Source of the DNA: Mesorhizobium sp. ZC-5
GTDB taxonomy: Bacteria > Pseudomonadota > Alphaproteobacteria > Rhizobiales > Rhizobiaceae
Assembly: GCF_025753855.1 (NCBI RefSeq)
Contig: NZ_JAOWPT010000002.1
Span: 744,001-808,000, forward strand
DNA: 64,000 nucleotides
Reading direction: 5' to 3'
The notes beneath the pieces are model-generated. The model saw only the letters and a program-made list of their open reading frames with translations. It was not told the origin of the DNA and did not search any database. Within the stretch, counting starts at the first letter, position 1. Every line of letters starts with the position of its first letter. Below, piece by piece: positions 35,031-37,223 of this stretch. Both the position numbers and the translations under genes were made by a program.

Positions 35031-35069
35031 AAAAGAAAAAGCCCGCCGAGGGAGGAGGTTCGGCGGGCT
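35031..35069 (-). terminator. Intrinsic terminator of the small RNA
   Basis: AGCCCGCCGA / TCGGCGGGCT (10-bp perfect stem, 10-base loop) followed on the minus strand by TTTTTCTTTT. It closes the small-RNA candidate and would also stop read-through from the lipoprotein gene at 35199-35510. Confidence 0.85.
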
Positions 35070-35106
35070 ATATGTTGTGCGATCTGGGAGGAGGTAGATC
35101 GCACAC
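35031..35106 (-). ncRNA. Small RNA candidate with two anti-Shine-Dalgarno hairpin loops
   Basis: On the minus strand two hairpins follow each other with 6-7 bases between. The first spans 35105-35076 (10-bp stem), the second 35069-35040 (perfect 10-bp stem), then T5CT4 at 35040-35031. Both loops read ACCTCCTCCC on this strand, complementary to Shine-Dalgarno sequences. A plausible promoter precedes it: TTGCCG at 35137-35132 and CTAGAT at 35115-35110, 16 bases apart, giving a transcript of about 76 bases. The layout resembles rhizobial alpha-r14 (NfeR1) and rhodobacterial cuckoo-type RNAs that block translation by loop pairing. It lies between two small lipoprotein genes. Confidence 0.75.
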
Positions 35107-35198
35107 TCAATCTAGGAACTGCCTATCGATTCGGCAATCGTCAAAGGTGCGCGTTCGTTGTGCACAATTGTCGCAGGCCGGACGGGCAGCCAGTTTCG

Positions 35199-35510
35199 TC
35201 AGTAATTGCCGTCGTAGTAGCGGTCGTCGCAGCGTGCGACATAGACCCTGCCGTCGGAGCCGCGATAACGGCACATCTCTTCGCCGCGACGCTGCGGCGT
35301 TGTCGCTGTTCCGACCACCGCGCCGAGAAGCGCGCCTGCGCCGGCACCAACGACGGTGCTCCTGGTATCCCTGCCGATTGCCTGGCCCGCCAGCGCGCCT
35401 GCGCCGGCACCGATGAGCGCGCCGGTGCCGGCACGCTGCTCCTGTTCGCTCGTCGCGCAACCGGCAAGCGCCATCAGGGTTGCGGCGATAGTCATGGTGT
35501 GACGTTTCAT
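35199..35510 (-). CDS. Glycine-zipper lipoprotein (17-kDa antigen-like)
   Basis: A 103-aa protein with lipobox LALAGC-type processing (ATLMALAGC, Cys at residue 18). Two glycine-zipper stretches follow (GTGALIGAGAGALAGQAIG and VVGAGAGALLGAVVG), then a short C-terminal domain CRYRGSDGRVYVARCD that could form a disulphide. The ATG at 35510 has GGAGAGGGA upstream. Such proteins sit in the outer membrane; function unknown. Confidence 0.8.
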   Translation of the reverse strand: MKRHTMTIAATLMALAGCATSEQEQRAGTGALIGAGAGALAGQAIGRDTRSTVVGAGAGALLGAVVGTATTPQRRGEEMCRYRGSDGRVYVARCDDRYYDGNY

Positions 35511-35825
35511 ATTCCCTCTCCGTTGAACGTTCACGTTGCTCAATTACGCGCCACTGGGCAATAGGTTCCACAGCCCACGATTTGTTACGCTTTGTTGCGG
35601 GCAGGGCCGACCCGCTGGTGTGACGGGGCCGTTCGAGGAGCGCGCCAACGTGGCACAAATTGCATAGTATTAGCCCCCAAAGAACTATTTTTGTCGCTTC
35701 GGGGATGTTGCCTGCGAAGCCGCCGAACACCGGCCAGATCTGGGTGCCGCCCGCGGTCACCCGGTGCAGTAGAAAATGGTATGAACGGAGCCATAGTGAT
35801 CTTGGAACGGCAAAGGATATCCAGA
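35511..35825. other. 315-bp intergenic region before the DUF1254 gene
   Basis: It holds the divergent promoters of the glycine-zipper lipoprotein (minus) and the DUF1254 gene (plus). The AT-richer part is 35655-35700. No gene is supported: the open frame upstream of the DUF1254 start has no ribosome site and no family-like sequence. Confidence 0.5.
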
Positions 35826-37223
35826 ATGATCAGGGCCGCTCTTAAATTGGTTCCGCTTGCATTTCTATTGCTGGCGGGAGCCGCATCCGCCCAGGATGTC
35901 TCCGACGAGGAGGCCTACGAGATCGCCAAGGAGGCGTACGTCTACGCCTACCCGCTGATGCTGACACACACCACCTTGCAGAAGCTGTCGAATTTCGCCG
36001 AGCCGAAAGAAGGCGACGCTTTCGGCCCGCCCAACCAGTTCAATCACGCCCGGGCCTTCCCGAATCCCGACGACAAGATCGTCATCCGCGAGAATGTCGA
36101 CACGCTCTACTCGGCCGCCACGCTCGACCTGAAGGCGGAGCCAGTGGTGCTGACCGTGCCGGCGACCGACCGCTATTTCATGCTGCCTATGCTCAGCCTG
36201 TGGACGGACGTGTTTGCCGTGCCAGGGACGCGCACGACCGGCAAGAACATGGCGCGGGATTTCCTCGTCGCGGGGCCGCAATGGAGCGGCGACGTGCCCG
36301 CGCGACTTGAGGTGATCAAAAGCCCGACCCGCTATGTGTGGATCATCGGCCGCACCCAGACAAACGGCGCGACCGACTACGAAAACGTCCACAAAGTCCA
36401 GGACGGCTACAAGCTGACCCCGCTTTCGGCTTGGGGCAAGGGTGACTACGTGCCTGCCAAGGGCCAAGTTGACCCCAGCGTCGACATGAGGACCCCGCCG
36501 CCGGAAATCGTCGACAAGATGGACGCGGCGACCTTTTTCGGCCGCTTCGCCGAGCTCGTGAAGGACAATCCGCCAAATCAGGTCGACTATCCCATGACCC
36601 ACCGCCTCGAGCGGGTTGGTTTCAAGGTTGGCGAGAGCTTCGACCTGGCGGCCGCCCCTGAAGCCATCCGGCAAGCCTTCGAGCGCGCCTATGGCGACGG
36701 CAAGGCGCTGGTGGCAGCCGAAGGCAACAAGGCTGCCGGCATAGGGGGCAAGGGCTGGGTCTACACTACCCGCAGCGGCGCTTACGGCGTGGACTACCTC
36801 TACCGCGCGGCGATCGCCCAATGCTGCGTTGGCGAGAACCTGCCGCAGGATGCTGTTTATCCGGCACTGTCGAGCGACAGCGAAGGCCAGCCGCTGGATG
36901 GCAACGGCAACTACGTGCTGCATTTCGACAAGGGCAAGCTACCGCCGGTCGACGCGTTCTGGTCGGTGACCGCTTATGACGCGGAAGGCTACATGATCCC
37001 GAACGTGCTGAAACGCCAGGCAATCGGCGACCGCGACAAGCTCGTCGCCAATGCCGACGGTTCGGTCGATCTCTACATCCAGGCCGATTCCCCAGGGAAG
37101 GAGAAGGAGCCCAACTGGCTTCCGGTCGCCAAAGCGCCGTTCACGCTCCTCATGCGCCTCTATTCGCCGCGCGAGGAGTTCCTCGAAGGCAACTGGGCAC
37201 CGCCGGCGGTGACGCGGCAATGA
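35826..37223 (+). CDS. DUF1254/DUF1214 periplasmic protein
   Basis: A 465-aa secreted protein. The ATG at 35826 has AAGGA 10-14 bases upstream and opens a signal peptide ending AGAASAQD. The N-terminal DUF1254 domain (EAYVYAYPLMLTHTT, IRENVDTLYSAATLDL) is followed by DUF1214 (FDKGKLPPVDAFWSVT, GSVDLYIQADSPG). These proteins are common in Proteobacteria with no proven role. It is followed on the same strand by two outer-membrane beta-barrel genes, so the three may form a unit. Confidence 0.88.
   Translation: MIRAALKLVPLAFLLLAGAASAQDVSDEEAYEIAKEAYVYAYPLMLTHTTLQKLSNFAEPKEGDAFGPPNQFNHARAFPNPDDKIVIRENVDTLYSAATLDLKAEPVVLTVPATDRYFMLPMLSLWTDVFAVPGTRTTGKNMARDFLVAGPQWSGDVPARLEVIKSPTRYVWIIGRTQTNGATDYENVHKVQDGYKLTPLSAWGKGDYVPAKGQVDPSVDMRTPPPEIVDKMDAATFFGRFAELVKDNPPNQVDYPMTHRLERVGFKVGESFDLAAAPEAIRQAFERAYGDGKALVAAEGNKAAGIGGKGWVYTTRSGAYGVDYLYRAAIAQCCVGENLPQDAVYPALSSDSEGQPLDGNGNYVLHFDKGKLPPVDAFWSVTAYDAEGYMIPNVLKRQAIGDRDKLVANADGSVDLYIQADSPGKEKEPNWLPVAKAPFTLLMRLYSPREEFLEGNWAPPAVTRQ

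Follow-up and report, generated by a model that had tools for sequence, protein, structure and literature searches.

At approximately 35104-35031 on the minus strand of the window (the whole 64,000-nucleotide stretch of Mesorhizobium sp. ZC-5 DNA that was analysed) there is most likely a real, hitherto unannotated gene for a two-hairpin small RNA of the ar14/cuckoo kind, predicted to act in trans, to be transcribed from its own promoter and to repress mRNAs through anti-Shine-Dalgarno (anti-SD) loops. We infer the transcription of this RNA, its start site, its regulator, its dependence on Hfq and all of its targets.

The architecture recognised in the initial annotation, namely two different 10-bp minus-strand stems that present the same 10-base loop and are followed by a T-run, can be read directly from the sequence: both hairpins (35105-35040) carry the identical loop ACCUCCUCCC, and the stems, which differ from each other in sequence, consist each of 10 perfect Watson-Crick pairs (Table 1). 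The 76-nt stretch folds into the two hairpins with -34.3 kcal/mol (z -8.24), none of 200 shuffles being equally stable, and a search for twin hairpins (perfect 8-bp stem, 10-base loop, spacing <80 bases) identified it as the only same-loop pair of the 64-kb window, with no pair in 100 dinucleotide shuffles. The loop appears to resemble the anti-SD 3′ end of 16S rRNA; one search of the ZC-5 genome for an exact 16S-end string gave no match. A simple terminator scan, accepting only loops of 3-8 bases, did not list hairpin 2. The number of loop words in the genome was rejected as evidence by itself, the 18 exact copies equalling the 18 of the reversed control; ten of these copies fall in five ar14-like loci, and none of the remaining eight folds into a hairpin with the word in its loop.

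Table 1. Features of the predicted small RNA locus and of its upstream neighbour (positions in the window)
Feature	Position	Strand	Description	Basis or conservation
Hairpin 1	35076..35105	minus	10-bp stem TGTGCGATCT/AGATCGCACA, loop ACCTCCTCCC at 35095-35086	sequence, fold, covariation
Hairpin 2 (terminator hairpin)	35040..35069	minus	10-bp stem AGCCCGCCGA/TCGGCGGGCT, loop ACCTCCTCCC at 35059-35050	sequence, fold, covariation
U run (intrinsic-terminator tail)	35031..35039	minus	TTTTCTTTT, 3′ of hairpin 2	sequence, T-rich columns in 40 relatives
Putative -10	35110..35115	minus	CTAGAT	TA kept in 36/40 aligned relatives
Putative -35	35132..35137	minus	TTGCCG, 16 nt ahead of -10	TTG kept in 39/40 aligned relatives
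Palindrome-like box	35148..35164	minus	TGCACAACGAACGCGCA; TGCA-N9-CGCA in the window	consensus TGCA-N9-tGCA
Gly-zipper protein gene	35202..35510	minus	directly upstream, same strand, outside the RNA	Pfam Gly-zipper_YMGG, 1.7e-10

Comparative data support the earlier proposal that selection acts on the loops, insofar as these are nearly fixed and the stems covary. In an alignment of 16 two-hairpin sequences from 14 loci judged two-hairpin by eye (L202 and L250 contributing two matches each; the degenerate L248 and L263, whose hairpin number was unassigned, left out), 95.0% of the cells hold standard pairs and all 19 pairs are changed on both sides, as against a shuffle mean of 9.2 pairs (0/500 as high) and 4-13 pairs in slid versions. 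Both hairpins contribute to this result, with 9/9 modelled pairs changed on both sides and 90.7% of the cells paired in hairpin 1, and 10/10 pairs and 98.7% of the cells in hairpin 2. An enlarged alignment of 40 two- and three-hairpin matches from 38 loci (without L204, which is the same copy as the second L202 match, L205, L248, L263 and twelve three-hairpin loci) likewise has 19/19 pairs changed on both sides, with 95.9% of the cells paired, and the core columns of both loops stand at or near 2.0 bits, invariant or nearly so; both alignments having been fitted to the model structure, which favours it, and consisting of related sequences, none of these covariation figures is a probability.

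The number of hairpins varies among the relatives. As the loci were picked by score or match length, the following counts give no family-wide share of the two-hairpin form: by eye and from folds, 33 loci comprise 24 with three hairpins and seven with two, these being the window, copies 1 and 2 of the same-genus genome G002, and G099, G291, G087 and G196 (first loop altered in G002 copy 2, second loop altered in G099), the rest being G001, with two hairpins and a damaged second loop, and the contig 26 copy of ZC-5, with three hairpins of which the last loop alone is exact. Another 20 loci, mostly chosen for a short match, yielded two hairpins in seven cases, three in twelve and no assignment in one; among these seven, L248 has degenerate loops and L246 an irregular first stem that is absent from the lowest-energy fold. 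Altogether the two-hairpin form (G017 included) is found under nine genus labels, or eight without L246. An arm-by-arm comparison with 18 three-hairpin relatives, made with a script that missed the first hairpin in several of them and one or both hairpins in others, placed the window RNA closer to the first hairpin in 13 and to the middle one in five, and G002 copy 1 nearer to the middle hairpin in nine and to the first in six, with three ties; the comparison being ambiguous, loss of the first hairpin relative to the three-hairpin relatives was dropped as an explanation.

A default Rfam scan of the window returned tRNA only. With the cut-off lifted, the best match is ar14 (RF02344; 35139-35034, minus strand), with 54.3 bits and an E-value of 2.3e-9; the gathering cut-off being 58.8 bits, the window RNA falls 4.5 bits short of it, and it is because of this small deficit that the default scan misses it. 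CcsR1/cuckoo (RF02791) scores 38.2 bits (E 5e-8), far under its cut-off of 65.3 bits. The search of these two families suggested by the initial annotation returned matches to both, neither above the threshold. As to structure, the window RNA has two and not three aSD hairpins as in ar14, and it shares with ar14 the unpaired CCUCCUCCC in every loop and the variable stems; it has the two hairpins with CCUCCUCCC loops of CcsR/cuckoo and also the consecutive hairpins with identical aSD loops that define a modular anti-SD family of variable module number. Judged from its sequence, the window RNA resembles ar14 and CcsR without belonging to either when the tests are applied strictly; its place is with the modular family.

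The likeness to ar14 (NfeR1/Smr14C2 of Sinorhizobium meliloti) also extends to the U run after the terminal hairpin, to the conserved upstream stretch and to the presence of several copies per genome, whereas hairpin number and Rfam score set the two apart. With the CcsR/cuckoo RNAs of Rhodobacter (RS0680a) the window RNA has in common its two hairpins and their loops; on the other hand, the CcsR RNAs originate by processing from the 3′ UTR of ccaF1 (PMC8625941), which encodes a DUF1127 protein (PMC10253847), whereas the window RNA follows a Gly-zipper gene and apparently has a promoter of its own. A 2011 survey (PMC3927594) had already described SmelA075 and SmelA099 as RNAs with three and four hairpins and SmelC201 as an RNA with two, mentioned the two-hairpin Rhodobacter RNA RS0680a and reported the proposal of a single family whose module number varies (two, three, four). 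The window RNA shares the anti-SD hairpin series of this set, although its likeness to SmelC201 refers to the published description of the latter and not to its sequence. Hence, the suggestion that the 76-base form may be a separate member holds in the sense of a separate two-hairpin gene, but not in that of a new type, two-hairpin members being already in print (PMC3927594). None of the openly licensed papers covered by the search was seen to name the window gene, and the accessible portion of a paper on Mesorhizobium sRNAs (PMC5596092) does not describe this RNA.

The ZC-5 genome contains further RNAs of this kind. At E-values up to 10, ar14 gives seven matches in it, five strong and three above the cut-off; at this permissive level 9 of 14 control genomes give matches too, all of them under the cut-off. 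The five strong matches are the tandem pair of contig 15 (99.1 and 93.3 bits) and the copies of contig 8 (66.6 bits), contig 26 (57.4 bits) and the window (54.3 bits). The tandem pair of contig 15 (L009, 102262-101987, minus strand; three hairpins in each copy) has its first copy 5 nt beyond a DUF1127 stop codon, an arrangement matching the published CIN1 locus, in which alphaproteobacteria frequently combine DUF1127 genes and CcsR-like RNAs (PMC10253847); at two other loci (L048 and L061) a DUF1127 gene precedes the match by 12 and 51 nt. The three-hairpin RNA of contig 8 (L011, 53482-53592, plus strand) lies 17 nt past the stop of a phasin (Phasin_2) gene, a position that suggests a 3′ UTR-derived form, and contig 9 of G002 has a copy that by eye is similar to it; the openly licensed literature, searched for phasins together with anti-Shine-Dalgarno sRNAs, yielded one paper, on mycobacteria. 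In the contig 26 copy (L012, 1631-1747, plus strand) the exact motif is confined to the terminator loop, the first two loops having drifted, so that by its sequence it may be a decaying or retargeted copy.

In a wider set, ar14 matches at 1e-3 are found in 45 of 61 genomes (own plus 60 relatives), 37 of them above the cut-off, and in none of the 14 controls. Matches are present also in 9 of 24 genomes of the same order but of other families, one being above the cut-off; the wider ar14 kind is therefore not confined to the family. A more specific model (R1), consisting of the window RNA with 65 upstream nt, promoter included, was built from the alignment of the window, both G002 copies and L189. 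It matches 3/3 genomes of the genus at 1e-3 and, in whole or in part, 326/395 genomes of the family at 1e-5, where any match counts, even of the RNA part alone, so that 326 is not the number of genomes possessing the promoter. At the stricter 1e-6 it finds 1/190 genomes of the class, its own; the family and class searches having different thresholds and few candidates scored per genome, misses are possible, and the latter result means that R1 does not reach distant members and is no sign that they lack such RNAs.

Within the genus, G002 has a Gly-zipper gene 80% identical to that of the window and a two-hairpin copy on each of its flanks. The upstream stretch of the window RNA aligns with that of the two G002 copies and of L189, a gene with three hairpins from Mesorhizobium zhangyense, copy 2 giving the poorest alignment. 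In this copy loop 1 reads ATCCCCTCCCA, and in G001 the second loop is CCTCCTCAA and the terminator stem imperfect; to judge from these changes, some of the same-genus copies may be decaying. Elsewhere, L250 (G089) presents tandem matches of two-hairpin length (106-259 and 301-455) within 350 bases. A tRNA gene lies at most ~190 bases from the copy in 6 of 34 loci scanned, namely L202 (G002), L108 (G017), L216, L217, L189 and L230, any tRNA being present in 8 of the 34, and L216, L217 and L189 being near-identical relatives; this proximity is possibly a hint as to how the copies moved.

Upstream of hairpin 1 the 40 aligned rows share a consensus, cGacAtT-n-TGCaca-n-c-nnn-tatGCA followed by TTGccgaat and then by TA-nn-T, that extends up to the foot of the hairpin; some rows, e.g., L203, L251, L252 and L260, lack part of these elements. 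The distance between TTG and TA (23 nt) is constant in 39 of the 40 rows, and the putative -10 element would place the start of transcription near 35104-35102, by the base of hairpin 1. A scan for E. coli-type promoters returned nothing upstream of the window RNA. As for the palindrome-like box, its first TGCA is present in 30 of the 40 rows, and its second half is TGCA in 20 and CGCA, the form of the window, in four; the complete box with TGCA in both halves thus occurs in at most 20 rows, and that of the window is incomplete. The box is possibly the site of a LysR-type regulator. In S. meliloti, NfeR1 is reported to have a sigma-70 promoter, to be activated by LsrB at TGCA-N6-GCAT and to be repressed by NtrC (PMC10746234). 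A likeness of the box to the LsrB box of NfeR1 is conjectural, and an action of LsrB at the window site is a guess; the TGCA-N9-tGCA of the relatives has a spacing that differs from the published motif (PMC10746234).

By analogy with NfeR1/ar14, the loops probably pair with Shine-Dalgarno sites, helped by Hfq. The anti-SD motifs of NfeR1 have been reported to pair with translation initiation regions, the three motifs being redundant (PMC7143759, PMC10746234), and to silence mRNAs such as that of ntrB (PMC10746234). The window RNA would be expressed from its own sigma-70-like promoter and extend from the base of hairpin 1 to hairpin 2, which would serve both as terminator and as second binding module. 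Each loop ACCUCCUCCC, kept single-stranded, would pair with mRNAs at Shine-Dalgarno stretches resembling (GG)GAGGAGGU, so that ribosomes could not bind and translation would fall; Hfq, for which the ZC-5 genome has one gene, would assist. Potential target sites of the form GGGAGGAG-N3-9-ATG number 19 in this genome as compared with 8 for the reversed pattern, a weak excess. A Pfam scan of 18 of the 19 frames (L268, with 19 aa, being too short) assigned 13 to a family and five to none. Two of the candidate products are TctC transporter receptors and one is an NMT1/THI5-like protein, which fits, if weakly, the leaning towards transport genes reported for NfeR1; two others are AMP-binding enzymes.

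An alternative reading, which we consider unlikely, derives the window RNA from the Gly-zipper mRNA, whose 3′ UTR RNase E would release in the way that CcsR arises from ccaF1, or sees in it mainly the terminator of that gene. The Gly-zipper gene, a possible source of read-through, lies on the same strand, its stop codon preceding hairpin 1 by 93 nt, and in the same genome the contig 15 pair and the contig 8 copy directly follow the DUF1127 and phasin genes, at 5 and 17 nt, respectively. However, copy 1 of G002, with the same RNA and upstream elements, sits upstream of the Gly-zipper gene, and it is a tRNA-Ser gene that ends 117 nt before its matched stretch; furthermore, the spacing of the putative promoter is constant in all but one of the 40 rows, and exact-loop hairpins accompany the Gly-zipper gene in just two of 80 named loci, among the matches listed. 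These two, L189 and L131, both have three hairpins, together with the same upstream stretch in the former and an unmatched upstream part in the latter; R1 likewise matches 2/80 loci at E below 0.001, among the matches listed, and L164 and L196 each have just one hairpin, in which the motif is partial. Many of the 80 loci, a set that may lack records close to the ZC-5 genome, are probably paralogues situated elsewhere in the genome, so that the finding weakens conservation of the neighbourhood but not that of the gene family. Accordingly, conservation of the neighbouring gene was rejected as proof of orthology, and the situation that the initial annotation had held to speak against the gene, unconserved loops beside a conserved flank, applies in part. 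A DUF1254 + DUF1214 gene (35592-37223, plus strand) also neighbours the locus, with no link to the RNA seen.

That the window RNA is instead a functionless, decaying copy of a three-hairpin ar14 gene appears very unlikely: one hairpin fewer than in 24 of the 33 loci and the damaged loops of G002 copy 2 and G001 could be so explained, but the window copy has two perfect stems and two undamaged loops, and two-hairpin forms with covarying stems recur under nine genus labels. There is even less reason to believe that the RNA acts on ribosomes or on other RNA, as a sponge of GGAGG-containing RNA or a competitor in initiation, rather than on single mRNAs. Such an activity would agree with a loop that is the generic complement of the Shine-Dalgarno sequence and is repeated in each module, but NfeR1 is reported to silence specific mRNAs such as ntrB (PMC10746234), and no observation favours a sponge. 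The reading preferred here is thus that of a functional trans-acting sRNA gene endowed with its own promoter.

As a tentative extension, doubtful as it stands, it can be imagined that rhizobial lineages repeatedly switched between three and two identical anti-SD modules behind one conserved type of promoter, the hairpin number being a selected setting for the binding capacity per transcript or for mature RNA length; the window gene would then represent the two-module setting, kept and duplicated in the genus. The natural two- and three-hairpin versions, alike in their upstream elements, can readily be compared to learn why the identical loop repeats. The window copy escapes scanning at the ar14 cut-off, so that the numbers of anti-SD sRNAs per genome obtained in this way can be too low. 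Finally, with copies after a DUF1127 gene, after a phasin gene and in the gene of the window, the ZC-5 genome would have one RNA module placed under maybe three modes of expression.
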